NCBI RefSeq assembly: GCF_037126465.1
Contig: NC_088201.1
Coordinates: forward strand, 197,602,403 to 197,666,402
DNA length: 64,000 nt
Direction: 5' to 3'
Source: Ornithodoros turicata
Taxonomy: Eukaryota; Arthropoda; Arachnida; Ixodida; Argasidae
The position numbers were made by a program, and so were the translations under genes. Shown here piece by piece: positions 6,174 through 63,740 of this stretch (the stretch's first letter is position 1; the number at the start of each line of letters is the position of its first letter). Under the pieces are notes generated by a model. The model searched no databases and had not been told where the DNA came from. It saw only the letters and a list, made by a program, of their open reading frames with translations.

Positions 6174-6310
6174 AATTGTAATGCCAATCAAGTTGAAATA
6201 TATTTATTAAAGCCAATCGTGCTGGGAATCGTGCCAGTTGTGATGCCAATCACGTAAAAGAGAAAAACCCAGATGAAAAACCTTCACGACCTGTAACAGA
6301 AGAAACACAA
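6174..6310 (+). repeat. Polinton left terminal inverted repeat
   Basis: Positions 6213-6310 match the reverse complement of 18193-18290, including the inner block CCTTCACGACCTGTAACAG followed by AAGAAACACAA. The outer part consists of short sub-repeats built on 'ATTGTGATGCCAATCA'; a further outer copy lies at 6174-6190, separated by an A/T insertion absent on the right. Sub-repeats at the termini are known in Polintons. Confidence 0.85.
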
Positions 6311-6331
6311 TGCACATAATAAAGAATATAC

Positions 6332-9300
6332 TTACTCATTACCAATTTCACAGCTTCCATATGGGTATGAGTCAATGACATTAAAGAGGTATCTCTTATG
6401 ATCATAGGGCGTGAGTGCAAGCTTAGTTGTTTCCACTGTATACATGCGTTGGCGCTTACTACATATGGTCCTTTGTGGATGACTTACCTTCACCCTATTA
6501 AACAAAACATCTTTATATACATCGTGATGCAATTCCTTACGAGCAATACTTTTCTTAACACGTTTTGGTCTAGCAATTTGACTATCGTCACTCAATCGGA
6601 TAGAATACATTTTTGCTTTCAAAGCAACCACCTCTTCAATTATCCTACCTCCAGTCTCATCCTTGAAGCGGAACAATGCCCCATTATTCTTATTACTATA
6701 GAGTGGATGATCAGTGGGATAGGATGAAAGATCAAGGTGATCATCTGCAATCTTTTTGATTTCCTCTTCATACTCTGACATATGAAACACACCAATGATA
6801 GAATCGGTATCCGAATACATGATGGTAATGGGACAGTTCAACTTTTGCAAGAGAGTGCAATAGACAAGTTCGTACATTATCAACTTACTGTAATCTAAAA
6901 TACAAAAAGAAATCTGCAATAGAAAGCTACATTTTACCTTCCTTTTCTTCATCTCATACAACACACAATTCTCTGACAAAATTTCAAATCGAATGCAGTC
7001 GTTCGAGGAACTATATCTTCAGGATCTTCTTTGGTGAATGCTATCTTAATTGATCTAAATCGCCTGGGGGAAAGCAAACATCGACCGTACAAAGAGTTAC
7101 AGTTCATTTTATATGTTTCCTTCTCAAATCCGTTTGTGCTGCAATGCGTCGCTGAATGTTCATTTTAATGTACGGACCAAAGACCCTACCCTGAAGAAAT
7201 TTCAACACTCTATGAATTTTGCTCACACGCATACCTAACTTGCAATATAGACTCAGCAAATGATAATGCACAACTTACTCTGTCTTATCATTACAAGTGA
7301 GAAGTAACTTACCTTCTGCTGCAGGTTTGGAATTCAACTGATCTTTTAGAGACAACTGGTACTCTCACAACCAGCTCTCGTCACCCATATGCTTCACTGG
7401 CGCTAGTGGGAAATACCTGGTCTTCTGGTGTAGGTTCGGCTCGTAAACGAGGTCGCACAAGTAAATGTAGCCATACTCTGCATCCTGAGGATGGTTAATA
7501 TGTGTCCAAGCTCGAAAATTCGGATTCGGGCACCCACTGGAATCTTCCAATAGGCAATGGCAATGTTTGGCAACTGGCATAAAGACTGTTTGCATCCCAA
7601 TAGGAGATGTAACTGTGTGGTTTCTGAGGGTCAAAGTTTGCATAATATTTCTTACTGGCAGCAGCATACCTCAATCCTTGCTGGCAAATACCGCCTCTAA
7701 TAGATGACTCAATGGTTCTATACATATATTCATCTGTAAGCAACTCGATCTCGGCCTTTGTATACTTGAGGGCAGCCTGCCAACTGAATCCGGGTAGACT
7801 GACAAAATGCAGCACTTCTAAGCCATATGTCTTCATAGAAAGCTGTTTAAAATGCTGCATAACAACTAACAGGAGCAGGACGTCACATTCCAGATAGATC
7901 AAAGTATAATCTGTCAATGTCTTGCAATCAAAATGATTGTATGTTTCCCGAGGAAAAGCATAGTCATCGTTGCTGATGTGTGTACCATTCAAATCATCAT
8001 AAAAACCCTCCTTGGTCGGCAGGTATTCTTCATTCTAGACTTGAAAGCTTTTGATCCAGGAATAAAGGTACACACCTTTTCAAGTTAAATGTGCAAAGTC
8101 ATTACCATACACCTGCTGTAGGCACTTAAATGCATCAATTCCTTCCGACACTTTTAAACTATCTACCAAGCAAGAAAGGGTGTGATGTCTCTGAATATGA
8201 GATTCCCATGTTCAAAATTCCGAATCTTCTCAGAACTCGTCGCGATGAGCTTTGGCGGTCGCTTCCACTTCAAAGCATGGAAGCAATGCAGTAGGAAACT
8301 GATGTCATACTGAAGGTTGTGGATGAGCACTGGAATTTGTAACCCCTTGTACACTTTTCACAAAAAATCTACATTTCTTACCAAACAAGGTACTGAAATT
8401 CTTTATACCAAAAAAAGTGATTATCAAATTCCCATAATTGCACTTTATCGTTAAACGCGAGACGCAGAACACGGGAATTGTGAATACTTCCATCCTGATA
8501 GGAGTACACATACACTTCAATTTGGTTCCGTTCTTCAAATCCTGCAATCTCCGAATACGATACCGGACCGTCGGGCCACCATTTGACTCTAGCCAATGGA
8601 TTCGAATCGATATCAACCACATACTTGCAATATGTTTTGCATTCACTTGCTTTTTTTCTTTGAGGATGCAACAGTGCTAAAGTATTGTACTTGAAACACT
8701 CATTGTCGGGGCATTTTACCTTTGTGAGTGTTCTCTTTCTTTTTTTCAATTCGATAGGAATTACAGTGCCACAGCCAATCTTCTTTTTTTCGATCCTGCT
8801 TATGTTCAATTCGATTTCGGACATGTCCCAAGAGACATAACCGCTACCTTCACCCTGATAATTTTCCAGGTTGCGGGATAACTCACTAATCATTTTATTT
8901 AGCACAACCATTATATCTCCGAGACTATGAGTTTCACGCTGCACGGAACTTAGAAAAGCAAAGTGGCTGCTCATCGAATCGCCAACTTGCTTCACCATCA
9001 ATATTTTCATGCGCATAAAAAATTTAAATGGTATGGGGTACTGTTGTAATATGAAAACTATATCGTGCCGGCAATGTATCAGGTATTCGAACGAATCCTC
9101 AACAAAGTCGTCCTACGGTGACGCCAACAGGACGTAACGTCCAACGTATCCTTCAAAGGCCACAGCGGATTCAATGAACGGAAAGTATAGTACGCTAACA
9201 CCAGGATGAACCACCGAAACATGTTCCGCGAGATCGTTCAGAACAGGCTCTGGGCTATCTAGATTTTGCACGGCATCTGCCGGCGTATTATCACCAAGAC

Positions 9301-10392: not shown

Positions 10393-10827
10393 TTAAATGA
10401 CGTATTCCTCTTCAGTCATTCTTATTACATTGAGATCGTTGTGTACAAGGTTATTGTCAAATAATGACATAATACTTTTGAGTGAATAATTATTGCAAAG
10501 ACAAGAAGCAAATAGGGAAACAAAGAGGCCACAATGGGAGATGTAGAGACTCTGTATACACTTGTCACAATATTCGTCAATAGGTAGATCTAGCAGTTCC
10601 ACTTCAATTGGTGGTAGACCAAAGCTGTCCACGTAGATGAATCTATCATTTGGATCCATCATGTACAACAACCAATGCTCTCCCGGGCCGTCGTGTGGAT
10701 GCATATTAATGACAATGAAGCCTTCTTCTTGAAGTGGCGAAACTCTGTCGACAGCGTAGCTTCCTCGATATATTCTCACAGTTTGAGGATTCATTGAAAA
10801 CAGTAATTCGAGATCTAGAACATCCAT
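10393..10827 (-). CDS. adenain-like cysteine protease (Polinton PRO)
   Basis: An uninterrupted 144-codon frame. The family (C5/adenain, Ulp1-like fold) matures virion proteins in adenoviruses and Polintons. The catalytic layout is visible: a histidine in 'GEHWLLY' (about residues 50-56), an aspartate in 'YVDSFGLPP', a candidate oxyanion-hole glutamine in 'CIQSLY', and the nucleophile in 'HCGLFVSLF'. The order His-Asp-Gln-Cys and spacing fit the family. It is somewhat shorter than adenain (about 200 residues), with a compressed segment before the cysteine. The start Met at 10827 is the first in the frame and falls directly after the capsid gene's stop (10831), as in a compact viral gene block. 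This is one of the few Polinton genes here with no break. Confidence 0.8.
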   Translation of the reverse strand: MDVLDLELLFSMNPQTVRIYRGSYAVDRVSPLQEEGFIVINMHPHDGPGEHWLLYMMDPNDRFIYVDSFGLPPIEVELLDLPIDEYCDKCIQSLYISHCGLFVSLFASCLCNNYSLKSIMSLFDNNLVHNDLNVIRMTEEEYVI

Positions 10828-10830
10828 GAT

Positions 10831-12144
10831 TTAATCCAAATGAACTGCAAGGTCAGCACTGACTGTCAATATCTTGGGGCTCTCACTTATAAATATAACC
10901 GACACGGCGTGAGGCAATGGCTTTGCAAATTTAAGTTCAATTCTACAATTTCTCTTACGTATCGGATTAAAGTAGCCACCAATGGACTCGTCTGCACTGA
11001 GATTCCAATGCAATATCAATGAATTAGTTTTATAATTCTGATAACGTAGCTTGATGCTTCTATCATTCAGTTGAGATATTAAATCATAATAGCTTCCTCT
11101 GCATAGGTCATTGTCCCAATCGTATGAGAGTTGTTTTCGATGTCCATCAATTGGTAGTGTTACTGAACTCACATTGAAATGCTCAAAATTGAATGGACTC
11201 AGCTTGAAGTCACCCCGATAGGCGTCGGTCCGTGTCATAACCATTGAGATCCGACTGGAATGCGATCGGTGTATAGATTGTCGAAAATTCCATCCACTGA
11301 GCCAGCAGTTAATGTCTTAATTTTGCTCTCTAAACCTCGCATAGTATAACATGCTGGATGTTTCTTCAGTATAGACTGGTGAGAGAGGAATGTTGAGTTA
11401 CTGACTTTGACTTTACGTAATGACAATACTGCATTGTGTATCTTCATTTGATATTGATGCGTTTCTCCTGGACCAGTCTATAAGCAATTCACGTCGCTGG
11501 GGTGCACAGCAGACACCCTAACATCCAATCACGGTAATAATAGCTTAATTTGATCTGTCAAATCTGTATTAACACGCATGACAACTTCAAATAGTTTGCC
11601 ACGATTTGTTCTAGAAATGAGCGCTTTAGCAACATTTGAATTTGGATCATTTGCAGCATGTTCACCTTAATCATAAATATACACACCACAATCATCTAGT
11701 GTTTTGTGAAGATGCGTGTTGGTGTGGAGCAAAGTATCAAGCATAAATTGGTAGCAATTCAGACAATTTGACGATACTAATCGCTGATTGATATACACAT
11801 TAATATACTTCAACATTGCAGCTCCCAAGTTATTCACTGGGAATACAACATCGTCGACTACACCATCCGCCGTTCTTGTATACGGATCACTCCCGTCGCT
11901 TCTCAATATCTGCATAGTTCGTTTAATGTACATACTAGAAACACCAAGATAGAGATCAGATAAGTTGCTTATATTCCATTCAATCGTAGATCCGCCACCT
12001 GTAATTGTCGATACAGGGTAGAACAATTGGTTCTCGCATGATTCTATAGAAATTTGAGTGGGCGGGATTTGAAAAAGCTCACACTCCCCCTTCAAAACCA
12101 ATTCGGACTGGGTGTGGACTACGTTGACCATTGACATTTTTGCG
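10831..12144 (-). pseudogene. Polinton major capsid protein (double jelly-roll), frameshifted
   Basis: The N-terminal segment (from about 12144 down to 11667) has the family's opening landmark 'SELVLKGECELFQIPPTQ' and later 'PVNNLGAAMLKYINVYINQ', equivalent to the conserved PVNNxLHSLFxQVDVxLN region. A middle part around 11450-11650 is in another frame ('GKLFEVVMRVNTDL'). Segments at 11447-11235 ('VLSLRKVKVS') and 11244-10831 ('NPFNF'-like 'SPFNFEHFN', 'CRIELKFAKPLP') correspond to the second jelly roll and C-terminus. Together they cover a length close to a full capsid gene. At least two frame changes separate the pieces, so no continuous protein is encoded. Confidence 0.85.
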
Positions 12145-12224
12145 ACTGAATACAAATATAACCCTCTCCCTTGTTTTATTTTTAGGACTTGACAGACCAT
12201 TTAGATGTCGCCACTTATTTCCGT

Positions 12225-14202: not shown

Positions 14203-15295
14203 TCAATTTTCTTGCTGGATATAATTTTTTTCAATTGGATATGGGTCATCATCCTCTTTGATCACACGGTCCAATTTATTTGCATAATATGTGCCCTCTT
14301 CTTCTACACCATCTGGGCCTGCAATGTAAAAGACTGGGGGATCTGTTTTCTTATACCTCGCAATTGTGTAGATAACGTGAGACCAGTGTCCTGTGTACCC
14401 CTTGTCAAAGACTGATCGATTCAATAGAACACGAACTTGCTGGCCAATTTTGAATGGTATTGTGATGTCATTATCATCTTTTTTTACTATTGAATCTACT
14501 GAAGAGTTGAACCTCGTTACTTTCATTCACTTCATTCGGTGCCATTTTAATAGTTCTATGGTAAGAATTGTTATAATCCTCTATAATCTTTGGAAGAATT
14601 TTAAGGTATTTGTGATGTCCTTTACTACGGAAATAGCGGAATAGGCGCCCTTTAATTGTTCCAATTGCGCGTTCTGCCAAACACGATTTTATAAGAGAAA
14701 ACGAATGATAAATAATTATACTGTGACGCCTACACCAAGCCTGCACATGTTTGTTGAAGAATTCACGCCCCTGATCCACCTGGATTGGGCGGGTTTTTTC
14801 CCCCCTATTTCTGTATACCTTCATAAATCCTTTCTTCACGTCTTCACCTCGCTTGGTCTTGAGAGGTGTGGCCATGATTTGCCTCGACAAACAGTCGATC
14901 ACAAGCAGTATGTAGGAGAATCCTTTATTGTATTTCTTGTATTGAATGAATGAAATGAGGTCTGCTTGATGGAGGTCGTTCAGGTGGAGTGAGATGACTT
15001 TCCTTCTCTTAAATCTGGGTTTTTGTGGAGAGTATAGACGTCGTCGGCGTTGTAATTCTTGTAGTCCTTCTTTCCTTGTGATTTTTCGTGCCTTTTCGTA
15101 AAGTTTAACCCCTCCAAGCCCACCGTCAGGTGACCTGTATCTCATTCTTCTTCTGAGAAATATTCTTCGTCCGAAGATGAAATCAACTGTGTTCTTTGCG
15201 GCGACTTGTAGGTCTCCCACAATATTTTCTTCTTTGATTTTCTTTTCTGTCTGATTTTGTGTGATGGTAGAAGCTTCGACATTTTTAGAAATCAA
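14203..15295 (-). pseudogene. Polinton retroviral-type integrase with one homopolymer frameshift
   Basis: The main frame (15295-14474) has a basic N-terminal region, then the DDE core: Asp in 'LLVIDCLSRQIMATPLK', Asp in 'IQVDQGREFFN', and Glu in 'CLAERAIGTIKGRLFR', with 'YNNSYHRTIKMAPNEV' after it, as in retroviral and Polinton integrases. The C-terminal SH3/chromodomain-like part ('FKIGQQVRVLLNRSVFDKGYT...HVIYTI') is in another frame, 14526-14203. The two overlap at a run of seven T on the plus strand (about 14479-14485), where a single-base slip explains the break. Otherwise the gene is complete, so the disruption looks young or could be an assembly error. Confidence 0.85.
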
Positions 15296-15639
15296 ACGGG
15301 CCTCACTCGTTTATGACCGGATAGGTACAACACCAATTCCATTATACTAGAGCTATGAATGGTTTTGTTGTTATGAATGATTTCTCCTTTTTCATTCCAT
15401 GACAAACTCCTTGGTAGCGCTGACACTATCCATTTCACTTTTTTAATATTTATATTATCTGGTAGATCATCATAATCGAATTTTCTGCTAATACTTTCCT
15501 CCATTTGTGATGGTTTTATTATTGGCGGATCTGATTTTCTTGTCGGCTTCAATTTATTTTTTATGGTGTAGTACATAACTGTTAGCATACATTTTACCTC
15601 AATGTCTTCGCTTTCATTAGATTCCAAAATGGTGTCCAC
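15292..15639 (-). CDS. conserved Polinton protein of unknown function
   Basis: An open 115-codon frame overlapping the integrase start by 4 bp. Its C-terminal half has the pattern 'LSWNEKGEIIHNNKTIHSSSIMELVLYLS', which recurs in Polinton/adintovirus-type elements as W-[DN]-x-x-G-x-[LI]-x-x-[ND]-x-x-[IV]-x-x-[ST]-x-[IM]-x-[DE]-L-[VI]. The N-terminus is acidic and charged. Function is not known to me. The tight overlap with its neighbour fits a compact gene block. Confidence 0.5.
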   Translation of the reverse strand: MDTILESNESEDIEVKCMLTVMYYTIKNKLKPTRKSDPPIIKPSQMEESISRKFDYDDLPDNINIKKVKWIVSALPRSLSWNEKGEIIHNNKTIHSSSIMELVLYLSGHKRVRPV

Positions 15640-15656
15640 TGGATTTAATACCTAGA

Positions 15657-16033
15657 TTTTGTTGGCTTTACCGGCTACCTTAGCTATAGCCCGCCCTGCT
15701 ACACCACCTAATATACTAGTCAAGGCTGTCAGTAATAGCGGGAGTAATGGGACCAAACCTCCTCGTTGTCGACATAAAAACTTTTGTAGTTTCTTTGGTG
15801 ATTTGTGCAATGTTTTATATGCGATGTATCGAATTGTGGCTTTATATTTATTTCTTTAAATCTTTGTATATTTTTGGTGACAGTTTAACGTTACCATTCA
15901 ATATATTCTTGCAAACTTCGGAAAGAGCTTCAATGCTGTGTGAAGGAGCCTCCTTCAATATGTTGTCCCATTCTCTTGGAGTGCATGTTGCAAGCACTTT
16001 AAAAAAAGTTAAATGGTGACGTAGATTTTTCAT
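15657..16033 (-). pseudogene. Polinton small PX-like protein with Gly/Leu-rich hydrophobic tail, frameshifted
   Basis: The first half (16033-15848) is open and has a helical region ending 'NGNVKLSPKIYKDLKK'. The second half continues in another frame at 15843-15657, with a basic linker and then 'GGLVPLLPLLLTALTSILGG'. Polinton elements often encode exactly this combination (helical domain, 'GNVxLSPxxxKxLK', hydrophobic glycine-rich end), which may be membrane active. The stop at 15848 and the frame change make this copy non-functional as read. Confidence 0.6.
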
Positions 16034-16790
16034 TTTGATACGAGAACGTATTGCGACTCGAGCTTGGTTGTACCTGTTCGCAATCTTTTATCAGACTGGG
16101 TAAGTGGATGTAGGTCAATCACTAGATAACCAAATGGTCTCTCTGTTGCTTGTTCGAATGCATTCAGAAAGTATGGTAGCCGTGATTTCCCATAGATTTG
16201 TCGTCCTAGAAGTTCGGGTTGCGCACGAGATCTTAAATTATTGAATAATATTATATATGTGCTGTTGTGGGATAGAGTGCGGTAGTTTACATCGTTATGA
16301 AATAAGTATTGACAAAGAAAAATAATTGATGCATTCTTGTGATGGGATGCTCTCGTATAGGGATGAACCATATCTTGCATAACATTATTTTCAGTCATGA
16401 GATCATCAACTATAATCAGTGTTGGTATGTTCTTATCCCATGTCGTTGGTAATTCTTTACTAAATGTAATCTTAGTGAATTCATTCTACCAGCTAGCATC
16501 ATATTTACCAATATAAAATATTTGATCTGAGACTGCACTGAATACTGATAGATTTCTGAGGATGTTACGAAGTTTTTCGTGACATGGAAGGTCCACATAT
16601 AATAATTCGTGCAGGGTGGATGAAAAAAAACAGTGTTACGTCGGACATTGTGTTGCAGAGGTAGAAATGAAACTGATAATAAGACATGTATAAAACTAGA
16701 TTTATTACCATCCAGTGCTTCCCCAGCCATCGATTTGATCAAATTGACTTTTAGCAGACTCGTTTGGCCCTGAGGAGACGTTTGTGAGAC
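16030..16790 (-). pseudogene. Polinton FtsK/HerA-type genome-packaging ATPase, damaged
   Basis: The C-terminal half is clear: 16398-16030 contains 'MTENNVMQDMVHPYTRASHHKN', preceded in frame by a Walker B region reading 'TLIIVDDL', and then 'YIILFNNLRSRAQ', all landmarks of the Polinton/adintovirus packaging ATPase. The N-terminal half is in several frames with stops. The Walker A position at about 16765 reads 'GPNESAKS' rather than GxxxxGK[ST], an alanine replacing the key glycine. A 'HxxxxHDVNYRTLSHN' segment is conserved. Non-functional as read. Confidence 0.75.
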
Positions 16791-16924
16791 AAAACGCGTC
16801 TGATAGCTTCAGTTTTTGCTTCATGAATTTCTTGTTTCAGACGCCATTTCCTATCTTTGGGAGACTCAACTTCCTCCTCCTCTTCACATTTCTTTCCAAA
16901 ACAGCGACGAAAGAGTTTCCGCAT
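16751..16924 (-). CDS. small charged ORF upstream of the ATPase
   Basis: An open 57-codon frame with a basic start ('MRKLFRRCFGKKCEEEEE'), an acidic run and a basic helical end ('EAIRRVLSHKRLLRAKRVC'). It overlaps the beginning of the ATPase in a different frame. No family recognised. It could be an exon or a chance frame, so confidence is low. Confidence 0.3.
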   Translation of the reverse strand: MRKLFRRCFGKKCEEEEEVESPKDRKWRLKQEIHEAKTEAIRRVLSHKRLLRAKRVC

Positions 16925-17091
16925 AATTATTTTGGCAGTGAGCTCCTGGTCTTGGGAACGAATAGGAAAATTAGGAGGTGGGCTCGTCCAAAAGGTAATA
17001 AACGGGAAAGAGTGGAGAGGAGGTTGTATTATAATGAGGATGCTGCATGTTTAGAAGTTTCTTCCTCACTTGACTGACTCATATTCCAAAA

Positions 17092-18165
17092 ATGTCTGAC
17101 GATAGCGGTAAGTTTTTGCTTCGCAATGTAGTTCTTTTTTCCTCATGACTGTTGTCTTTTTCGGTATTTACTCCCAGTTCAGTACTATTTGAAGAATCAA
17201 GAAATTATACTGAATATGAAAAAGGTGTTTAAATTTGATTTTTTGTTTCAGCTCCAAGTCGCCGCCGCCAATATGTGTCTATTATCGAAATTTAATTTGA
17301 CGTTAATATATGAGTCTGATGACTTTGCTGGATTGAATGAATAGTTAATATAATTGTTTGAATCTTTTCAACGTACACACCTGTGTCCGACGAAAGCAGT
17401 AAGTTTTTGATTCGCAACGTAGTTCTGTTTTCTTATGAATATTGTCTTTTTCAGTATTTACTACAAGCCCAATATTTTTTTGAAAATGGTAAGGAATTAT
17501 AATGGATATGAAAGGAGTGTTAAAATTGTATTTCTTGTTCCAGATCCGGAGTCGCCTGCCCCGTTATGTATGTATTGTTGGAATATGGTTGTGCATGTTT
17601 AGTTATCTTCTTCATCTTACACACCTGTAGCACAGCCAACCCCCGAATGTGAGTAAAAGTTATAGGACACGATTACAATAATAAATGAGATTCTCTTTCA
17701 GATCATTGGACTTCGCCGCCACCGCAATGTACGTATTATTATAAAACGAGTATGGATGTTGATAATGTGACTATCTTTTCAGATTACCCAACGTTGGATC
17801 CAGTGAACTGTATGTATTATTGAAATGAATAAGTTGGTATTACTTTAGATTCACTTACAGGTTATTGGGGTCCACCGCCACCACAATGTATGTATTATTG
17901 AAATGTATAAGTCGATATTTATTCAGATTCACTTACAGATTACTGGAGTCCGCCGCCACCGCAATGTATGTATTATTATAATGTAAATGTGGTTTCATGT
18001 AATAATAATAACCGCTTCTGCAGGTCACTATTGTGCCCAACGTGAGTTATCGTGTGGTAAGCAATGTTATGATGTTAATTTTATGTTTTTACAGGGTCGG
18101 AAATGATGGAACTAATAAGGAGTACAATAATTAATACATTGAATGAAATATTAAGTAATGAATAA
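17092..18165 (+). CDS. micro-exon gene inside the Polinton (9 exons, 84 aa)
   Basis: Proposed exons: 17092-17107 (ATG), 17544-17567, 17631-17648, 17702-17728, 17783-17809, 17861-17887, 17939-17965, 18024-18041, 18095-18165 (TAA). Each internal exon has AG before and GT after, with strong donors (GTAAGT, GTATGT, GTACGT, GTGAGT). All introns are phase 1; internal exons are 24, 18, 27, 27, 27, 27 and 18 nt, and the total of 255 nt has no internal stop. The 27-nt exons encode variants of a 9-residue unit such as YYWSPPPPQ and CYWGPPPPQ. The last exon encodes a leucine/isoleucine-rich amphipathic helix. Splice junctions twice generate PPQY, a PPxY-type WW-ligand motif. It is on the opposite strand to the ATPase and 28 bp from the right terminal repeat. 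I know no family for it. The role is unknown; a virion or host-trafficking adaptor is only a guess from PPxY motifs in adenoviral capsid proteins. Confidence 0.7.
17380..17580 (+). repeat. diverged duplicate of the first exon-intron block of the micro-exon gene
   Basis: 17092-17290 and 17385-17575 are similar in order: 'TCTGACGATAGCG|GTAAGTTTTTGCTTCGCAA' versus 'TCCGACGAAAGCA|GTAAGTTTTTGATTCGCAA', then 'GTCTTTTTC.GTATTTACT', then a pyrimidine tract and a proline-coding segment. In the first copy the downstream exon has a weak donor, in the second the first exon has lost its upstream AG, so one good exon from each copy is used in my model. Confidence 0.6.
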
Positions 18166-18192: not shown

Positions 18193-18300
18193 TTGTGTTT
18201 CTTCTGTTACAGGTCGTGAAGGTATTTCGGCTGGGTTGTTCTCCTTCACCTGATTGGCATCACAATTGGCACAATTCCCAGCACAATTGGCATCACAATA
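18193..18300 (-). repeat. Polinton right terminal inverted repeat
   Basis: Reverse complement of the left repeat over about 98 bp, with a handful of substitutions. It ends outward in sub-repeats of the type 'ATTGTGATGCCAATTG'. It begins 28 bp after the stop codon of the micro-exon gene, which places that gene inside the element. Confidence 0.85.
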
Positions 18301-25117: not shown

Positions 25118-27364
25118 TTATCTTCTTCGCCTAAAACCATGCGTAATGAGCTGGCTTCTAAGTTGTGCTGCACGATTTCTCATAGGCTGAGAGTCATGGT
25201 CCTCCTCTTCCTGTGCTCCATCCTCCTGTGTCTCCCCTGCTGCACCAGCTTCTGCCCCTTCCCCACTTGGCCCATCACCTTCATCTGTATTATCAAGAGG
25301 TTCACGGGTGTTGTACGCCAAGCACATATTGTGAAGCACAGCACAGGCGTTGATAATTCTGCAGCTTCGATCAGGAGCAAAGTGCAGCGTACGGTACCTT
25401 TGGAGGCATCGAAACCGCATTTTCCACAGCCCAAAACATTGTTCAATGCACACGCGGGTCCTGCTGTGTGCATCGTTGCAATCTTTTTCTTCCGATGTCG
25501 TGGGTGTACGAACCGGTGTCATCAGCCAAGGTTGGAGGGGGTAGCCACTGTCACCTGTAAATAGTTGTAAAGTTATATTTATTCTCTTGAAAATCCACAA
25601 ATTCAGACAAATGGATAGAGAAGGGAGAGCAGGAAGAAGTGGGAGGAGTTTGTGCGTGTTTATATATTCATGTTGACAATGTGTTATGCTGCTGTAGATA
25701 ATGTAAATGAAAGTGTATGAAAATAAATGTTGTTGTAATGTACCTGGCATGTAATAATGTATGTATGTATATGTAATGTAATGTATCTGTAATAAATGTA
25801 TCTGGCACAATAATTTATCCCTTCATCCAATAACACAATAAAGTGCTCACACAACTGATAGTTAGCAAGGCAGATGTTCTTTTATACAACTTGCAACAGT
25901 GTAATGCATCCATGTTAATTAACCCACTACTTAATGTATATTAATTAATGGAATACAGCTGCTTAGTTCAAGTATGGGTTGCTGAAATGAACTGAATGTG
26001 AAGTGTAATGCACTGTGTACTGTAAGAGTACAAATTGCATTATAAACAGATAAACGCATCCTACCAACTAGCCACTCTCCTTCTTCAAATACGGTTGAGG
26101 CGGCTTGACGGAGGTTGCAGGCAGCCCATACAGCTGCGTCATGGCATGAACCAGTGAACCTGGCATTCAGGAAGAGTATCCGCATGGAGGCATCGCAAAC
26201 CTGGGTATATGAAAACATGTTTAATGAGAACCTTGTTGTAGGTGCCCTTCGCGAACAGCAAAATGGAAGAAAGCATTATTGGAGAAGAGAAAAAGACATG
26301 GGGCAATTGTGCCTCGTACTGGTTTGAGACATGCATGGTACTGAAATTCTGAGCAGAAAAGGCACATACCATTAAGACGTTGATGGAATGGTAGCCTTTA
26401 TGGCAATAGTAATTGCCATCCACAAATCTCGGGTCGAAAATGCTCGGCTGCAAAATTGCTACCTGCGTACCGTCGATAGCCCCTGGAATCATGAACACAC
26501 TTTTTGGGATATGTCGCAGGCAGCACATTTCAACAGACAGTCAACTCGAACCATGTGTGATCACTCGTAACTTATCAGTACAGCATGTATACTGTACTAC
26601 ATTATGAGTCACAGTGCACATAGTGACTGACATAGACCCCTGTCTCGCACGAAACGCCTCTGCACCGAAAATCAGTGTATTGAAAACACGTAAGATAACA
26701 CAGGATTCGCTCTGTGCATTAGCCTTTTCATGCGTACATATCATGTGTGGTCACATACCGACACAGCCTGGGAAGCCTGCCAGCTCATGAAAGCCACGTT
26801 TCACTTCTAGCTTCGCCTCAGGAGTTGTGGGGAACCTCAGGTACTTGGGTGCAAGGTACTTTAAGATGGCTTCGCTAACTTCATGGACAGCCTGTGACAC
26901 TGCACGCTTGCTGCAGGCGATCGTTTCCTCATTTCCAATGTTTCCAAGGAAAGCTCCAGTAGCGTAGAAACGAAGGGCTGTGAGGACTCTCCGCTCTACG
27001 CTCAGAGTTGTCCGACGGGATTCTCGGGCTGAAATGTATATTTTAAAAATGGGGTGCTGTTACGTGCGCAAAGAATGAACCACATTATGATCGTGTACTT
27101 ACTGCGCTGCAAGTCCGGCCTAACAGCTTCGCACACCTCCCTGGCAGCTTCCTTCGACAATCGGAAGGTAGCAATGAACTCGTCTTCCGATAACGCTTCG
27201 AAAGCATCTCGATGACTGCGGAAGCTGCGTACCGGCTCTTCCTCAGCAACACCTTCTTCGAGGAAAAGCAGATACAAGTCCACCGGGTCCGCCATTTGCA
27301 ACGCGAACGTCGAGGAGCTTTGCGTTGTTCTTCCTTCTCTGCGCGGGCGATTACCCTCTGCCAC
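25118..27364 (-). CDS. PIF-Harbinger (HARBI1-like) transposase, 5 exons
   Basis: Exons on the minus strand: 27364-27103, 27028-26759, 26482-26370, 26200-26065, 25554-25118. All introns have GT...AG ends; the exon total of 1218 nt gives 405 residues plus stop with no break. A second Met at 27295 would give 382 residues. The DDE nuclease signatures are present: 'GAIDGTQVAI' (first Asp), 'GSCHDAAVW' (second Asp), 'GDSGYPLQPWLMTP' and 'CIEQCFGLWKMRF' (acidic residue of the third motif). N-terminal helices include 'FRLSKEAAREVCEA' and 'LTALRFYATGAF'. The C-terminus is acidic, then basic ('GFRRRR'). It looks capable of encoding a full transposase that cuts at the terminal repeats; its partner gene is frameshifted, so autonomy is doubtful. 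Confidence 0.88.
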
Positions 27365-36053: not shown

Positions 36054-38054
36054 TTGCTCCACGGCAATCTTTCCCGGAGTTCACAAGAGACACTGTTTGT
36101 GGATTTATGCCTTACATTTAATCTATCGCATGTCGTTCCACATCCTACCCGAATAACTCATGCCACGCAGTCAACCCTTCACTTGGTTTTAACCTCCCAT
36201 TCTGAGCACATCATTTATTTGCATGTCACTGATGGTCTCAGTGACCACAAGGCCATTTTCTTAGATATCTCTTCAAGTTGTCCAAATGTCCATAAATTCA
36301 ACGATAAAACTATATATATGCCTATGCTCGAGCTAACTTCCAAGCCATCAACGAGGGTCTTGAAGCTCTGTATGAAAATTTCTTTCATGGCATCTTGCTT
36401 CACTCCATTGAGGATAACTGGTCCCTCTTTCGTGACAACATGAACTACCTTACCGAGTACCATGTTCCAAAGATAAGAGTGAAATTTTATGATCACAATC
36501 CTTGGTTCACGAAAAGTCTTAAAATCTTGCTAACCAAGAAAAACCGTTTATTCAGGAAGGCAAAGCGTCTTGGCGACGACGTATCATGGGCTATATTTCA
36601 CTACTGTGAACGGGAATACAGGTGCTCGATCAAGAAAGTGAAACATAAGTTCTTTACCATCGACCTCCCGTCTCTCTTGACGAATAAACCAAAACAATTC
36701 TGGAAAATTTTATCTCCCCCAAAATCCCACCTTATCACCCACTGACATCCGCCGACGACGACTGCGCCAACGCTTTCGCTTGCTTGTTTTCATCCGTTTT
36801 CAACACCGATAACGGGTACACCCAAACTCTATTAGTATCAGTAATCGCCTCGTCACCTATGGTCCCCATTCATATCAGCACTCGTGGCATTTGTAAAATC
36901 ATTGTGTCACTTAAGCTGTCGTCAAGTGCTGGTCCGGACTCTATTAACCCGAAGGTTCTATACAACACGAGATCTATTTCCAGCAAGATTCTACGTTGCA
37001 TACTTACTCAGTCACTCCAGGATTCTGCTTTACCGCAGGACTGGAAGGCGGCGAAGATTGTCCCTATTCACAAATCAGGCAGCTGCCACATCGTTAATAA
37101 CTACCGCCCCATTTCACTCGCTTGTATAGTATGTAAAATTCTCGAACGCATACTCCAACGTAGTTAAGTACCTTGAAGAAAAATGCTTCTTCTATCCCTT
37201 GCAGCACGGGTTTCGAAACCTCTTTTCATGTGAAAGTCAAGTATCCAGTTTTGTTCACGACATCTTTCTCCACGCGGACAATAATCATCAGACCGCTTTC
37301 TTAGATTTTCGCAAGGCCTTCGATATGGTGCCGTACTCTAAGCATCTATACAAACTCTATCTGCTTAACCTCGACCCGTATGTCGTCCGTTGGACAGCTC
37401 AATTTCTGACTAATCGTACGTTATCTGTTACTTGCAACAACTACCTATCCCCAGATGTACCTGTGCTTTCTGGTGTCACTCAGGGTTCAGTCCTCGGCCC
37501 TCTCCTTTTCCTTATCTATATAAATGACCTTCCTTCAGGCATATCTTCCACGATTCGTCTCTTTGCTGATGACTGTGTAGTGTACAGGCAAATCCTCTCT
37601 CCTTCTGACCAACTAACCTTACAAAGCGATCTTTAAGTAATCCGGCATTGGTGCAATGAGTGGCAAATGCCTCTGAACATTGCAAAGTGTCGCATTTTGT
37701 CGTTTTCTCGAAGACGGGTCTCCTGTCTTCTTCCCTTCCCCTACATTCTTACAAATATCTTGGAATCCACCTTTCCTCCAACCTAACTTGGAACGAGCAC
37801 ATCAACCACATAATAACTAACGCTTCTCGCTCCCTAGGCTTTGTTAGACGCACCCTCAGGTTGGCGGCCTCCATCTTAAGCTCCTAACCATCACGGCTCT
37901 TGTACGAAGCAAGCTGAAATATGCATCACCTATTTGGGACCCTCCCCAAACATATGTCTGCGACGCCCTAGAAGCCATCCAGAATCGGGCTGCCCGTTTC
38001 ATTTCCAACGACTACTAATTCGATCCCTTGTAACCACATTAAAATCAAATCTTA
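36054..38054 (+). pseudogene. LINE endonuclease/reverse transcriptase, part 1, frameshifted
   Basis: RT motifs: 'PQDWKAAKIVPIHKSG' and 'NYRPISLACIVCKILE' (motif 1), 'QHGFRNLFSCESQ' (motif 2a), 'TAFLDFRKAFDMVPYSKHL' (motif A, catalytic Asp), 'GVTQGSVLGPLLFLIYINDLP' split across motif B, and 'RLFADDCVVYRQI' (motif C, catalytic Asp pair). Stops or frame changes at about 36745, 37166, 37634 and 37890 inactivate it. Confidence 0.85.
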
Positions 38055-48337: not shown

Positions 48338-48500
48338 TGTAGAGGACGATGGTATTTCTCTACATGAATCCCGACCGGCGATGATGGTATGCCACGGAGA
48401 GGCGATGACGGTGGCCTATCTCCATGGCCGCGCCGGTGGAACTGAGAAGCGGGTGCTCCAGGCGGGTGGCCATCCTCGTCGTTGTCCAGCGGCCGCTACA
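48338..48500 (+). repeat. 3' LTR (163 bp)
   Basis: Direct copy of 47072-47234. Confidence 0.8.
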
Positions 48501-48893
48501 TGGTAATCAATGCTTGTCGCGAGGCACGCTCTGCTCCACAATGCAGAGTGGCATAATTGTCCTTCTCTGCAAAGACGCTTCAAGAACGCAGGACCCGGAA
48601 GCGTATCGCCCCATAACACTTTTGACTTGCGACTACAAAATTCTAGCCAAGGCGCTTCTCCTACGTGTTTCGCCGCAGTTGGAGAAGGTGTTGCATCCAT
48701 GTCAAGCCTGTTCGGTCCCTGGCAGGTCATCGGTCCTCCACAGGATGGCTATCCGTGACACCACGCAGTGCTTAAATCTGAGACAGCTAACAGCGGTGTT
48801 GGCCTCGTTCGACCAGGCAAAAGCTTTCGACAGAGTGCGTCATTCGAATCTGTTCTCCACGCTTACAGCTTACGGCTTTCATGAAGCGTAGAC
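48501..48893 (+). pseudogene. LINE ORF2: reverse transcriptase N-terminal part
   Basis: 'MQSGIIVLLCKDASRTQDPEAYRPITLL' with 'TCDYKILAKALLLRV' (RT motif 1) and 'LTAVLASFDQAKAFDRVRHSNLF' (motif A with catalytic Asp); the D-Q-x-K-A-F-D-R-V form is typical of L1/Tx1-like elements. The frame ends at a TAG at 48889-48891; the palm motifs B and C are missing, replaced by the segment up to 49877. Confidence 0.85.
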
Positions 48894-49255
48894 TGGAAAC
48901 CAGGTAGGCACACAACATCGACAACAAAACATCAAACCAAATCATCGCCGTCGAGCACCTCCCCCCCCCCTTACATACACACCACATTCGACTTCCCAGA
49001 ACACAGAACTGTGCCGAAATTCGCGGAGCTCCGAAACTTGGCAAGGTCACAATAGCATCGCCATCCTGGACCATGTAGGGAGCGCGATATGGCAGGTAAG
49101 TGAACTAAGTGCAGCACACGCTTTCAATGGGGAAATCGCGAAGCTTTCAGGCCTGGTGTAATACATGGAGGCTTAGTTACATGTGACCGGTTGTGACTGT
49201 CTACCAATGTGCCGTAGTGTTGGATTTAATTTCATCCGCCCAAACTCTTCTCTTT
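48894..49255. other. non-LINE segment left of the 79-bp array
   Basis: About 360 bp with no recognised feature except a C11 tract at about 48959-48970. With the array it separates the LINE RT and C-terminal parts. Confidence 0.35.
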
Positions 49256-49877
49256 GGTTACGTTCCCCTTAAGAGGGAACACACTCAACTAAACAGTGAC
49301 CCATGGAGGCTGCGTAACGGCTTCTCTTCTCTCTGGTTAGGTTCCCCTTAAGAGGAAACACACTCAACTAAACAGTGACCCAAGGAGGCTGCGTAACGGC
49401 TTCTCTTCTCTCTGGTTAGGTTCCCCTTAAGAGGAAACACACTCAACTAAACAGTGACCCAAGGAGGCTGCGTAACGGCTTCTCTTCTCTCTGGTTACTT
49501 TCCCCTTAAGAGGGAACACACTCAACTAAACAGTGACCCATGGAGGCTGCGTAACGGCTTCTCTTCTCTCTGGTTAGGTTCCCCTTAAGAGGAAACACAC
49601 TCAACTAAACAGTGACCCAAGGAGGCTGCGTAACGGCTTCTCTTCTCTCTGGTTAGGTTCCCCTTAAGAGGAAACACACTCAACTAAACAGTGACCCAAG
49701 GAGGCTGCGTAACGGCTTCTCTTCTCTCTGGTTACGTTCCCCTTAAGAGGAAACGCACTCAACTAAACAGTGACCCAAGGAGGCTGCGTAACGGCTTCTC
49801 TTCTCTCTGGTTAGGTTCCCCTTAAGAGGAAACACACTCAACTAATCAGTGACCCAAGGAGGCTGCGTAACGGCTTC
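49256..49877 (+). repeat. 79-bp tandem array, 7.9 copies, with 237-bp higher-order pattern
   Basis: Units start with GGTTA at 49256, 49335, 49414, 49493, 49572, 49651, 49730 and 49809; the last stops at 49877. Units differ at only a few positions. Units 1 and 4 share 'AGAGGGAACAC' and 'CCCATGG', units 2, 3, 5 and 6 share 'AGAGGAAACAC' and 'CCCAAGG', so units 1-3 and 4-6 form two copies of a three-unit (237-bp) block. Confidence 0.95.
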
Positions 49878-50600
49878 CGGTGGTCCGGTGGTTCACCGAT
49901 ATCACTGACAGCCGTCCCAGAGCAGAAGTTCCCTCCCCTCTTTTCACAGCTTGCATAGCTGCCGTCAGACGCGTACGCGAGATGTCCCCAGACGCTGAGG
50001 TCTCTCTTTGGGAAGCCAAGGATTTCTACGCCGCGCTCATGGAGGCGGTGCTGGTTCCCTCCCGGCCTGGTGCCGTGGGTAGTCCTTCCGGGAGCGCCTG
50101 GCGACGTATCACGGCAGGCTGGTTGGACGCCCGTCGAGCGAGTCTCCAGTGGAGGATGGCTCATGGTGTCCTCCCGCTTCGTGAACGTTTACACCGCTTC
50201 CATATTTGTCACACGGGTCACTGCCCGTCTTGTAGCATCTCGGAGTCACCAGAGCACTGCTTCCTTCAGTGCCAGATTCCGCTGCTCCTGTGGAGCAGAG
50301 CGGCTGTTGTTTTTGACCTTCCAAGAGTCGAATGGGCCACTGTAAGTTCATGGAACCGCTGCCGGTTGCACCAAGGGATCGGAAACATCTGGCGTGTTTG
50401 ACTGCGGAAATAAATTTCCAAATTTGGATACGCCGGTGCCGGTTGGCCTTCAGTGGCCACGACTGTGGGAGCATAGGCTTGCTTCAGGCAGTTCGTACTG
50501 GACTACGGGCGCTGATCACCAGGGAACAGGCAGTGCTCGGCTCAGTCGAGTGCTGCCGTCACTGGCTCTGCTCCACTCGCATCTTCAGCTATGATCAGGG
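49878..50600 (+). pseudogene. LINE ORF2 C-terminal zinc-binding region
   Basis: Open frame 49880-50401 contains 'WRMAHGVLPLRERLHRFHIC' and 'CPSCSISESPEHCFLQC', the CxxC...H...C zf-RVT pattern following the RT in L1/Tx1-like elements. Stops at about 50401 and 50412 and frame changes interrupt the last part ('IWIRRC', 'REQAVLGSVECCRHW'). Confidence 0.8.
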
Positions 50601-59658: not shown

Positions 59659-62382
59659 CTCTATTATCTGAAGCATCCAAAATTGGGATTGAAGTTCGCG
59701 TACAATCGGCTGACAGGCAATGTCCATCATTAGAACATGTAAGCAATGAGTGATAAAAGCATGGGTAAATCACGCGAAACGCTACGTGGAAGTTTATCAG
59801 TTCCGGAATATGGGCACATGTGTTTATCGTCTGCCTCACTTGATCGCGAGACAGGCATCTGCAGCGTTGAAAGTATATGATTTTTTTTCTGTTTTTTTTT
59901 AGTTCCTATTGGGGAAGTTTCTCGCGGTGCATCTCCAGTAGACATTGTCGTCATTGACATTAAGATACTACATCACTGCATTAGTGGATCAGCTAGAAAT
60001 GATCGAGAACCGCACGGTTCGATTTTTCCTATCAATTTTCAATAGAACACCGGCGTCCCCGGACGTCCATAATTTGGCTCATCATTACGACCCGGATATT
60101 TAGGCACTAAAATGGGCAGAAATAGGCAGCCGTTTATATTCCAAGAAGCAAATAGGCAAAATAGGCAGTAAAAATAAATAAAAACACAAGCAGGCTCTCC
60201 TGAGGATGTATATGGACTTTCGTGTCCAGATTTCCATGATACGCCACGCTACTGCTTGCCCTTGTTAGAATAATACGATACTATGCAAGCTTCAACTCCT
60301 CGTACAAGAATACTTCTATGTAGTGGTGCCGTTCGTCCATGCTTCGTTCAGTGTGAACGAGTTAGACGTGTGAAATGAACTAAACGAACTTGTTTTAGAG
60401 AACGTCATGTATTTGTCCTTCCTTCCTTGTCTCGTGTTTTTACCGTTTGGAAATTGCCCCCACTAGAGAAAACACGAAACGAAAATCGGTCACAGTTCAC
60501 TTGATTGCCCGTTTACACTTCGCAATTCCTACACTTCGTACTAGTACTATGGTGAGCTAGAAAGACTGGCATGGCTGATCGGCCGCTGTCACGTGTAGTC
60601 GCCGATGTGCCTGGCCGTAGATGGCGCCAAGTATATCTTGCTAGTACGATCGAATCGCCTCTGGCAGTTTGTCACGGAAGTACGCATCACATCCTGTCTA
60701 CTGACACGTATCGCTCTTCTCGAGGAAATGCGGGCGTACCCAGACCTTGACTTGGAACAACAAGCGAACTGCTTCTGTGTCTGTTCAAGGCCAGTGTATT
60801 TCTCTGGTGTGCGTGCTGAGTTAATATCTCGGTTTCACACTAGTGACGGTCTTCGCGTAAATGAAATGCGTCCCTGTTGGGACCGCATTTTTACTAGGTG
60901 ATCATCCGTGAGAAAAAACAAAACAAAAAAATTAGCAGATATCTGGAACACAGTGCCAGATATTTGCTTGGTTTTTTATGTTTTCTGTTGTTGTTTTTTA
61001 GCACTTTTCACAGTTTCCACTCCAGTTCATGTCGGACATACACACTATCGTATTTCCTCGCGAGTGGCGTGTTTTCACACGTCTTGAAGTCCGTGTCTTC
61101 TCAGCCAACAGAGCTTTCTACTCCGTGTCATGTCGAAATTTCAAGTGGGTAAAACAGCATCCAGCATTGCTCAAGGCTGCTGCTAACAGTGCCCGAGTCC
61201 GTGTGGCCGCACAGTGGAGACTACTGCGTGTCCGTGTCTTTCCCGTGTTTCTCGGGCACAACGCCCCGTTTGGATACATTTCCTATCGCTTCCGTTCCTC
61301 AAGCATATCACGACGGTGCAGCTTTGTCACTTCTCCACTTCAAGTACAGCTTGGGACAAAAGTGTGCCGAACACGGGGGTGTCGCACTTTTGTCGGGGCG
61401 ACACCCTAGCGCAAACAGGACTGGGCGCATATGCTGAGAGATGGACAGAATGGACAGTCACCCGTTGCTTGTACGATCTCTTTCTGTTAGCTAGCAGAGG
61501 GCCGCACACATGATGAAATACGCTACTGCCCAGTCAGCCGCTACAGCGTCTTCAACAGCTTCACAGATGATGCTAGATGATATCTCTAAGATATATTTCT
61601 TGGAGGCATCTGAAACAATAAGGTGAGTTAGGAAGCTAGTTTTAGCAAGGGATAATACATTATATGTCACATAAAATGTGCCAAAACTTGTGCATCACAG
61701 CTTAGCCAGACTCCCCGCGTATGCTGTTACTTGCGGTCCAATGACGCTTCTTTTTGTTTGTTACCAGCCATATATAGCGCAATAAGATCAATTAACTGTG
61801 ATAACTTGGGCTACAGCAAGATTGTCAGTAAGGCATTACCTGAAGAGGATGAGAACAATGCACATTGAATTCTATATCCGCGATTATTTACATTCTATGC
61901 AGATTTCTTCCACACTCGGGAAAAAATATGCACGACCCAAGCTGAGTTATTATGAATTAATAACGAATAAAGGAAGGTCTATTACTTTAGCGCACCGTTA
62001 CTCTGAGATACCAAGAATTGTTTTGATCCATGGAATTTTAGGTGAGAATCGGTCTATGACGTCATCCAATTGGTGTCATGGATGACGTAGTTGCATGGGT
62101 GAACTGTGTGCTCTATCCGTTTCGCAGGAAATACAAGTCAGTAAAAGCTGCAAAGTTGAAATGAGAACATGCGTTCCTTTCGGTCACCTGATATCGTAGC
62201 CGTTTTCAGAACAAAAATCCGTTCGATAGATCGTCCGCAAAAACTCGTAAAAGAACACATTTTTTTCTTTACTCTGTGCATTGCGCACCTTAGGAGACAC
62301 TTCGTTCCTTCACCCTTAATGTCAGGGGGCCGAAAGAGTACACTGTCATCGCTTGTGTCCTCGAAAAAGATTAAGGCGTAGG
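59659..62382. other. 2.7 kb without a recognised gene
   Basis: Open frames near 60605-60901 and 61029-61437 have no recognisable domain, lack codon-level support and overlap others. A short 'AAATAGGCA' repeat occurs at 60116-60167. Confidence 0.35.
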
Positions 62383-62567
62383 GAAGTGACACGATCTTGG
62401 GTCGGCGCTGATAGTGTGCCTCGGCCAGTCATAAATGCTCCACGGTGACTGCGCCACCTGTGGAGCCCGCCCAGTGCAAGCCAGCAATTGCATATGCAAA
62501 TGGAAAATAGCCGAAGCTCTCTATCTTCACGTTGAGCATATGTTTGTAATTTGATCGTGCACTCCCA

Positions 62568-62612
62568 ACCGAGGACAGCGGTTTCGTTCTACTTGGAGCT
62601 CTTCAGCCCGGC
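62568..62612 (-). ncRNA. array hammerhead 1
   Basis: Minus strand: box one CTGAAGA, GAAA, GTC intact; stem I GCCGGG/CTCGGT pairs with two G-U; stem II GCTC/GAAC has one mismatch; stem III has one mismatch. Confidence 0.7.
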
Positions 62613-62800
62613 GTAGGGAAGTGACACGATCTTGGGTCGGCCCTGATAGTGTGCCTCGGCGAGGCATCAACGTTCCACGGTGACGCCGCCACCTGTGGAG
62701 GCCGCAGTGCAAGCCAGCAAGCACATATACAAATGGAAAATAGCCGAAGCTCTGTACCTTCACGTTGAGTATATGTTTGTAATTTGATCGTGCACTTTCA

Positions 62801-62845
62801 GCCAAGGACAACTGTTTCGCTCTACTTGGAGCTCTTCAGCCCTGC
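62801..62845 (-). ncRNA. array hammerhead 2
   Basis: CTGAAGA, GAAA, GTC intact; stem II GCTC/GAGC and stem III ACA/TGT (loop GT) perfect; stem I GCAGGG/CTTGGC has one mismatch and two G-U. Confidence 0.75.
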
Positions 62846-63033
62846 GCAGGGAAGTGACACGATCACTCGTCGGCCACGATAGTATGCCTCGTCGAGGCAT
62901 CAATGTTCTACTGCGACGGCGCCACCTGTGGAGGCTGCAGTGCAAGCCAGCAAGTACATATACAACTGGAAAATAGCCGAAGCTCTGTACTTTCACGTCG
63001 ATCATATGTTTGTAATTTGATAGTGCACTCTCA

Positions 63034-63078
63034 GCCGAGGACAGCTGTTTCGCTTTACTTGGAGCTCTTCAGCCCGAC
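63034..63078 (-). ncRNA. array hammerhead 3
   Basis: CTGAAGA, GAAA, GTC intact; stem I GTCGGG/CTCGGC (two G-U); stem III perfect; stem II GCTC/AAGC has one mismatch next to the loop. Confidence 0.75.
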
Positions 63079-63266
63079 GTGGGGAAGTGATACGATCACT
63101 CGTCGGCCATGATAGTATGCATCGGCGAGGCATCAATGTTCTACGGCGACGGCGCCACCTGTGGAGGCTGCAGTGCAAGCCAGCAAGTACATGTACAACT
63201 GGAAAATAGCTGAAGCTCTGTACTTTCACGTTGAGCATATGTTTGTAATTTGATAGTGCACTCTCA

Positions 63267-63311
63267 GCCGAGGACAGCTGTTTCGCTCTACTTGGAGCTC
63301 TTCAGCCCGAT
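63267..63311 (-). ncRNA. array hammerhead 4
   Basis: CTGAAGA, GAAA, GTC intact; stem II GCTC/GAGC and stem III ACA/TGT perfect; stem I five pairs (two G-U) then a mismatch. One of the best preserved in the array. Confidence 0.8.
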
Positions 63312-63499
63312 GTAGGGAAGTGATACGATCACTCGTCGGCCCTGATAGTGTGCCTCGGTGAGGCATCAATGTTCTACGGCGACGGCGCCACCTGTGGAGG
63401 TCGCTGTGCAAGCCAGCAAGTACATATACAAATGGAAAATAGCCGAAGCTCTGTACCTTAACGTTCAGCATATGTTTGTAATTTGATAGTGCACTCTCA

Positions 63500-63544
63500 G
63501 CCGACGACAGCTATTTCACTCTACTTGGAGCTCTTCAGCCCGGC
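63500..63544 (-). ncRNA. array hammerhead 5
   Basis: CTGAAGA, GAAA, GTC intact; stem II GCTC/GAGT keeps pairing through G-U; stem III has one G-U; stem I GCCGGG/GTCGGC loses its first pair. Confidence 0.7.
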
Positions 63545-63740
63545 GTAGGGAAGTGGCACCATCTTGGATCGGTCCTGATAGTGTGCCTCGGTGAGGCATC
63601 AATGTTCTACGGTGACGGCGCCACCTGTGGAGGCCGCAGTGCAAGCCAGCAATTACATATACAAATGGAAAATAGGCGAAGCTCTGTAGCTGCATGTTGA
63701 GCATATGTTTGTAATTTGATCATGCACTCTCAGCCGAGGA

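Follow-up and report, generated by a model that had tools for sequence, protein, structure and literature searches.

To our knowledge, micro-exon genes have been encountered only as host genes, in schistosomes and in aphids. In the portion of the source available for the Schistosoma micro-exon genes (MEGs; PMC10526429), these are described as rows of very short exons (3–81 bp) with introns of up to 5 kbp, which encode secreted worm proteins and produce many isoforms, 14 splice isoforms being given for MEG-1. The gene considered here resembles them in its row of very short exons and in its many predicted isoforms, but it is borne by a transposon, and its introns 2–8 measure only 51–63 nt. The aphid bicycle genes likewise contain multiple micro-exons and form a large, fast-evolving family; however, according to the available part of PMC9168663, they encode salivary effectors with elevated dN/dS, whereas pN/pS is below 1 here, and the bicycle classifier weighs phase-2 exons positively and phase-1 exons negatively, whereas all introns of the present gene are in phase 1.

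The gene was analysed in a 64-kb stretch of Ornithodoros turicata DNA (hereafter, the window), where nine exons of the + strand sum to 255 nt and encode an open frame of 84 residues followed by a stop codon. Canonical splice sites with phase 1 introns throughout (all eight are GT-AG), internal exons of 24, 18, 27, 27, 27, 27 and 18 nt and a total length divisible by three had been claimed in an earlier, sequence-only reading, and each of these was confirmed; intron 1 measures 436 nt and introns 2–8 51–63 nt. Exon 1 (17092–17107, 16 nt) carries the ATG and ends in phase 1, and a homologous 16-nt exon opens the NCBI isoform P0002 at the locus L094. Exon 2 (17544–17567, 24 nt), recognised by its splice sites and by alignment to the copy L003, corresponds to exon B′. 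Exon 3 (17631–17648, 18 nt) is the 3′ remainder of the 33-nt exon D (17616–17648) and relies on a substitute AG because the acceptor of exon D itself has been lost. Four 27-nt exons follow, namely exons 4 (E, 17702–17728), 5 (F, 17783–17809), 6 (G, 17861–17887) and 7 (H, 17939–17965), which encode HWTSPPPQ, YPTLDPVN, YWGPPPPQ and YWSPPPPQ, respectively. So, the 9-residue proline/tyrosine unit previously assigned to every 27-nt exon is found with its PPPPQ in exons 6 and 7 and as PPPQ in exon 4, but not in exon 5, which contains a different unit. Exon 8 (I, 18024–18041, 18 nt) encodes HYCAQ, and the terminal exon 9 (18095–18165, 71 nt) ends in a stop codon (18163–18165) overlapped by AATAAA and has an alternative donor after 18121. 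The distance from this stop codon to the called start of the right terminal repeat (18193) is 27 bp rather than the 28 bp given earlier. Note that a second donor 15 nt downstream of exon 8 (18024–18056) adds RELSC in frame, and an acceptor 12 nt ahead of exon 7 (17927–17965) would lengthen the product by SLTD, likewise in frame; each of these sites recurs across many copies.

Chains of potential micro-exons were sought with a rule demanding a YAG acceptor, a GTRNGT donor, a length of 9–36 nt divisible by 3, an open frame and introns of 40–120 nt. The longest chain in the window comprised seven exons and was located at the gene, with a maximum of one exon for the rest of the + strand and one for the − strand, and the maxima in 100 first-order Markov 64-kb sequences of the region's composition were one (45 times), two (53 times) and three (twice). 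A chance origin of the exon row was therefore rejected. A simple tandem minisatellite was rejected as well: the exon classes do not repeat a single unit, and exons that differ from one another nonetheless retain their splice sites and frame.

At the same time, the nine-exon model is incomplete and the window copy is partly decayed, as judged by its alignment to L003, according to which intron 1 conceals four further exon homologues on the + strand. Exon A (17165–17197, 33 nt) is a relic that has lost both splice sites, and exon C (17372–17398, 27 nt) is a relic that has lost its acceptor; the homologues of exons B (17252–17274) and A′ (17455–17488) have intact splice sites and measure 23 nt against 24 and 34 nt against 33, respectively. 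Inclusion of either B or A′ singly breaks the frame, but their joint inclusion preserves it (312 nt, 103 residues), and the 84-residue product is therefore one of two open readings.

The element that surrounds the gene has the hallmarks of a Polinton: a type B DNA polymerase (PolB), an rve integrase, an A32 ATPase and terminal inverted repeats. The left repeat (6212–6310, 99 nt, +) is 90% complementary to the right one (18193–18291, −); by eye, the former may extend outward to about 6150 and the latter may reach 18301, ending in ...ATACT. All recognised core genes lie on the − strand. The PolB region (6332–9112) consists of several separate reading frames, of which Pfam DNA_pol_B_2 covers 7495–8034 only (6.7e-10), the pieces 6332–7018 and 8378–9112 having no significant Pfam match and being assigned by position. 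A candidate Ulp1/C48-like protease (10393–10830) gave a weak match to Peptidase_C48, below the cut-off (E 0.097), and is followed by the integrase (14474–15310; PF00665, 1.2e-12) and the A32-type packaging ATPase (16030–16485; Pox_A32, 1.2e-5, above the cut-off). For the piece 11667–12200, considered as a candidate for the double jelly-roll major capsid protein, no useful match was obtained in Pfam or among solved structures; no 6-bp target site duplication was seen by eye at the presumed ends of the element, the positions of which are not certain. The micro-exon gene is located between the ATPase and the right terminal repeat. Its proposed status as Polinton cargo is supported by the presence of PolB, the rve integrase and the A32 ATPase in the same element and by the same gene order in 8 of 20 other copies. 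No relative of the integrase and ATPase was found in viral contigs, and none of the neighbouring gene stretch in phages. Across the genome, the Polinton ATPase was matched in at least 150 places (150 of 2042 candidates scored), many with equal scores; the Polinton population would be very large and apparently partly recent. Outside the element, the window contains a DDE_Tnp_4 transposase (25118–25810, −), reverse transcriptase fragments (37199–37636 and 48424–48891, both +) and tandem arrays with units of 79 bp (49166–50018) and 233 bp (62375–63733).

Gene models made by others agree with the splice sites predicted here. The 84-residue spliced model had one match at E up to 1 (5.8 billion database), LOC135392451 of Ornithodoros turicata; a second protein search returned two isoforms of LOC135375699, and an alignment search returned isoform X4 of LOC135372181. 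The protein searches, which needed shared 5-residue words and similar length, matched only O. turicata proteins. Four NCBI proteins (P0001–P0004) from three other loci are modelled with homologous micro-exons and differ in those included. In general, NCBI isoforms usually rest on RNA-seq. P0002 and P0003 map whole, letter for letter, to L094 by exact spliced alignment. The exons of P0002 measure 16, 33, 24, 33, 24, 33, 24, 27, 47 and 84 nt; P0003 lacks the first three exons of P0002 and begins instead in an exon further upstream, and both isoforms end in an exon of the terminal repeat. Isoforms with differing exon sets, which had been proposed from the symmetry of the exons, are thus present among the NCBI models of one locus. 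P0001 maps to L003 from residue 24, its 5′ exon not being found in the stretch covered; its exons of 33, 24, 27, 33, 24, 34, 24, 26, 27, 27, 18 and 27 nt precede the terminal-repeat exon. P0004 maps to L009 from residue 17, with exons of 27, 33, 28, 33, 24, 27, 19 and 22 nt, its first micro-exons being read in another frame and its end lying in exon 9. The 34- and 26-nt exons of P0001 and the 28- and 19-nt exons of P0004, together with the frame change in the latter, show that the pattern is not strictly followed in some of the annotated copies either. In the window, a counterpart of the upstream exon of NCBI isoform X1 (KEFPHNYFGSELLV...) lies at 16901–17000 (+), antisense over a small minus-strand gene (16751–17050).

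The alternative 3′ exon in the right terminal repeat of the window (18213–18253, +) reads REGISAGLFSFT and then a stop codon. Its homologues in P0001, P0002 and P0003 occur at two of the three loci modelled by NCBI and are read in the frame of the window repeats in P0001 and in another frame in P0002 and P0003. Downstream of PolB, the left terminal repeat contains the same exon (6250–6290, −), which there reads REGFSSGFFSFT, with an acceptor identical over 20 nt. Since AATAAA overlaps the stop codon of exon 9, the gene may have two 3′ ends. When P0002 was searched against the genome, at least 157 matches were obtained (150 of 1581 candidates scored); among the matches listed, the majority were to the terminal-repeat exon, and many of these formed, by eye, inverted pairs about 10–17 kb apart. 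The terminal-repeat exon pattern was found in none of the viral contigs. On the − strand at 6290–6340, a donor-like GTAAGT overlaps the stop codon of the PolB frame ahead of the repeat acceptor, so PolB transcripts might also be spliced into the repeat. In L091, an insertion at about 600–1480 lies between exon 9 and the terminal repeat; its short inverted ends begin CAGGGTGTCCCA, and we take it to resemble a small transposon.

A DNA search located the gene in at least 39 places of the O. turicata genome including the window, i.e. in at least 38 other copies; these places were obtained by manual grouping of 92 matches, with 39 of 1624 candidates scored, and their number is a lower bound. The possibility of a single odd locus was thereby rejected. 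All 39 copies contain a chain of phase-1 exons, comprising 4–16 exons under a looser rule, which was run without a shuffled control of its own and probably includes some chance exons (e.g. in L047), and 2–14 exons when limited to recurrent exon products. Among further loci, chains of 5–7 exons were present in L090 (the same place as L094, which is outside the 39), L091, L095 and L096, and none was present in the stretch of L093 examined. The recurrent exon products, junction residues omitted, were FSSSPIYFEN, PESPPPI, YTPVSDES, YTPVPQPTPE, HWSPPPQ, YPTLDPVN, YWGPSPQ, YWSPPPPQ/YWGLPPQH and QCCVQ/HYCAQ. The last of these exons, in its CHYC or CQCC form, presumably resembles the CYC motif of the bicycle genes. 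Short acceptor–donor pairs had a length divisible by 3 in 184 of 271 cases in the 39 copies against 8 of 26 on the opposite strand, with the reservation that the count takes the nearest acceptor and apparently breaks up a number of genuine exons (41 cases in a 13-nt class).

The 3′ half of the gene was aligned for 38 of the 39 places, L047 being without a 3′ end. In these 38 copies, the AG acceptor of exon 7 was present in all 38, its GT donor in 36 and a length divisible by three in 37; exon 8 had AG in 37, GT in 38 and a length of 18 nt in 37; and exon 9 had AG in 36 and a frame open to the last codons, also in 36. Splice sites and frame, the loss of which in other copies, together with an absence of spliced reads from any copy, the sequence-only reading had named as evidence against the gene, were thus kept in 36–38 of 38 copies per site checked. 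The surroundings of the gene were more varied. Within 3 kb upstream of 20 of the 38 copies, the integrase and/or ATPase stood in the window order in 8, only the nearest gene or a scrap of it was found in 2, and no core gene was found in 10; ten ORFs upstream of copies lacking core genes gave no match in Pfam, and five copies without core genes nearby had an upstream repeat of their own in common. The places L042 and L043 (97.7% alike over about 2 kb) and L059 and L060 (96.9%, likewise over about 2 kb) form inverted pairs with members about 9–10 kb apart. The gene may thus be present at each end of some elements, and for 3 kb upstream of L042 and of L059 no core genes were recognisable.

Diversity among the 38 aligned copies was 0.182, 0.150 and 0.294 at the first, second and third codon positions, respectively, and 0.122 in the intron cores; exon 6 contributed only 10 usable columns to this test and one intron none, and L047 was left out. 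Third positions exceeded introns with p 1.8e-7, the sites not being independent. The excess at third positions, together with the largely kept splice sites and frame, indicates that the gene is coding. Exon 8 was less diverse in total (0.094) than most introns, and one intron reached 0.222. In 34 copies (561 pairs; L034, L045, L051 and L038 were left out because of length or alignment trouble), micro-exons 7–9 had pS 0.365 and pN 0.153, and intron cores had 0.097; pS and pN were 0.280 and 0.139 for exon 7, 0.233 and 0.043 for exon 8, and 0.426 and 0.188 for exon 9. A comparison of the dN/dS type across copies had been suggested earlier, and it gave pN/pS of 0.50, 0.19 and 0.44 for exons 7, 8 and 9. 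For 17 disjoint near pairs, the values were pS 0.174, pN 0.067 and introns 0.045. Core genes were included for the window and the seven copies with alignable neighbours (28 pairs; micro-exons 7–9, three introns and three neighbouring genes): the micro-exons had pS 0.381 and pN 0.186 (pS 0.471 for exon 9 alone), the core genes pS 0.151 and pN 0.056, and the introns 0.102, with micro-exon pS exceeding core-gene pS in 27 of the 28 pairs. Since pS of the core genes is also low beside that of the micro-exons, it is the exons, not the introns, that are the outlier. The contrast was reversed for the closest pair, the window and L032, with exon pS 0.00 (0 of 21.7 synonymous and 1 of 92.3 other sites differing) against 0.06 for introns (6 of 99); in L054 and L057, 7 of 21 synonymous and 17 of 93 other sites of the exons differed, against 5 of 99 in the introns.

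Distance matrices of separate segments often disagreed at short range, as in the two halves of exon 9 (r 0.16) or in intron 8 and the stretch after exon 9 (r −0.20), although some nearby segments agreed, r being 0.83 between intron 6 and exon 7 and 0.55 between intron 7 and the first half of exon 9; these values come from 30 copies (L034, L045, L051 and L038 and the near-duplicates L036, L060, L066 and L043 were left out), and distances are noisy for segments as short as about 30 nt. The conflicting relationships fit an exchange of exon segments between copies.

The product is short, with 84 aa in the window and 87–144 aa in the NCBI models. The N-termini (MSDDSD.../MSNEKE...) contain, by eye, no hydrophobic stretch of a signal peptide, and no Pfam family was assigned beyond a sub-threshold extensin match. 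The motif [ST]P occurs 238 times in the predicted chains against 114 expected in shuffles and is present in 39 of 39 copies; PPxY occurs 27 times against 14.1, in 18 of 39 chains, and YPxL 13 times against 2.2, in 12 of 39, the shuffle tests ignoring shared ancestry and exon duplication. Neither PPxY nor YPxL is present in the two NCBI isoforms of LOC135375699; being absent from many copies, these motifs are not required. Lysine makes up 0.1% of the predicted chains, exons 1 and 9 excluded.

Taken with the gene models of others, the sequence comparisons make it highly probable that the micro-exon genes form a genuine family, spliced and protein-coding, on board a Polinton lineage of O. turicata, with exon exchange and a varied product. 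The gene opens with an ATG micro-exon, continues as a row of mostly 18–33-nt phase-1 exons of 6–11 residues each, rich in Pro, Ser and Tyr, and closes with a Cys-rich micro-exon and the terminal exon, an alternative 3′ exon being located in the terminal inverted repeat. Because the exons are symmetric, they could be gained, lost, doubled, skipped or traded among copies without loss of frame, and the conserved introns (about 50–60 nt) may act as spacers for recombination between copies. A decaying relic, which spread with the element, is no longer selected and appears conserved merely through recent copying, would account for the lost sites of exons A, C and D and the odd lengths of B and A′ in the window copy, for the odd-length exons of two annotated copies and for the 10 of 20 copies without a Polinton core gene within 3 kb; but pN is below pS, codon periodicity and splice sites are retained although the copies differ by 0.29 per third position, and we regard this origin as very unlikely. 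Equally unlikely is a role of the row at the RNA level, in control of splicing or expression or as an RNA decoy, with the peptide as a by-product. The introns are indeed conserved above most exons, and there are numerous alternative donors, acceptors and 3′ exons; however, third positions vary most, pN/pS of exon 8 is 0.19, exon 9 is open in 36 of 38 copies, and the intron divergence of 0.10 is close to the synonymous divergence of neighbouring genes (0.15), so the introns need no strong special constraint. For the coding gene, selection for a varied protein combined with conversion that evens the introns could produce the excess of exon over intron diversity, and MHC genes are a case of selection for variety. 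We tentatively propose that the family may be a diversification system of the mobile element, with exchangeable in-frame cassettes and a 3′ exon stored in the terminal repeats, in which recombination and alternative splicing would yield new linear-motif variants under diversifying selection. It is quite possible, by analogy, that gene conversion instead evens the introns and selection merely protects existing exon differences, as in the gibbon L/M opsins, for which the available part of PMC3213168 reports a synonymous diversity higher in exons than in introns, together with pN below pS, as found here. The conflicting segment relationships also agree with conversion, but synonymous divergence of the core genes is low too (0.15), and conversion would then have to be assumed to even out much of the element except the exons.

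With regard to the function of the protein, a rather speculative suggestion is an adaptor that is intrinsically disordered; its micro-exons would each supply short linear motifs, with [ST]P sites throughout and PPxY and YPxL in some copies, for host partners with WW domains, proline-directed kinases or ESCRT components, and the choice of exons would tune the partners. A proline/tyrosine-rich virion component of the fibre or spike type, with repeats that are exposed to receptors or host defence and hence variable, appears unlikely. Repeated units in variable number, an exon diversity exceeding that of the neighbouring genes and a location beside packaging or integrase genes that 8 of 20 other copies share with the window would suit such a component; against it, the product is very short, is without a Pfam family save for the sub-threshold extensin match and would change its C-terminus with the alternative 3′ exons.

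In an element that has PolB, rve and A32 genes, the micro-exon gene lies between the core gene block and the terminal repeat and thereby resembles the accessory cargo of Polintons/Mavericks; no Polinton gene built of micro-exons was noticed in the part of the open-licence literature surveyed. Adenoviruses are related to Polintons. Adenovirus protein VI, according to the available part of PMC2841620, offers a likeness in its short viral PPxY motif, which recruits Nedd4, but PPxY is present in only 18 of the 39 copies here, and a likeness of motif is meant, with no claim of homology. A micro-exon gene borne by a transposon illustrates a way in which such genes could originate and be dispersed, its exon duplication and exchange running in parallel in dozens of copies within one genome. 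The tick family also offers a tractable set of isoforms for host-partner searches, and its exon-over-intron diversity, a phenomenon already known from other genes, is a natural experiment on diversifying selection versus gene conversion. Micro-exon genes and Polinton cargo are each known kinds; no case of their union was noticed in the part of the open-licence literature surveyed.
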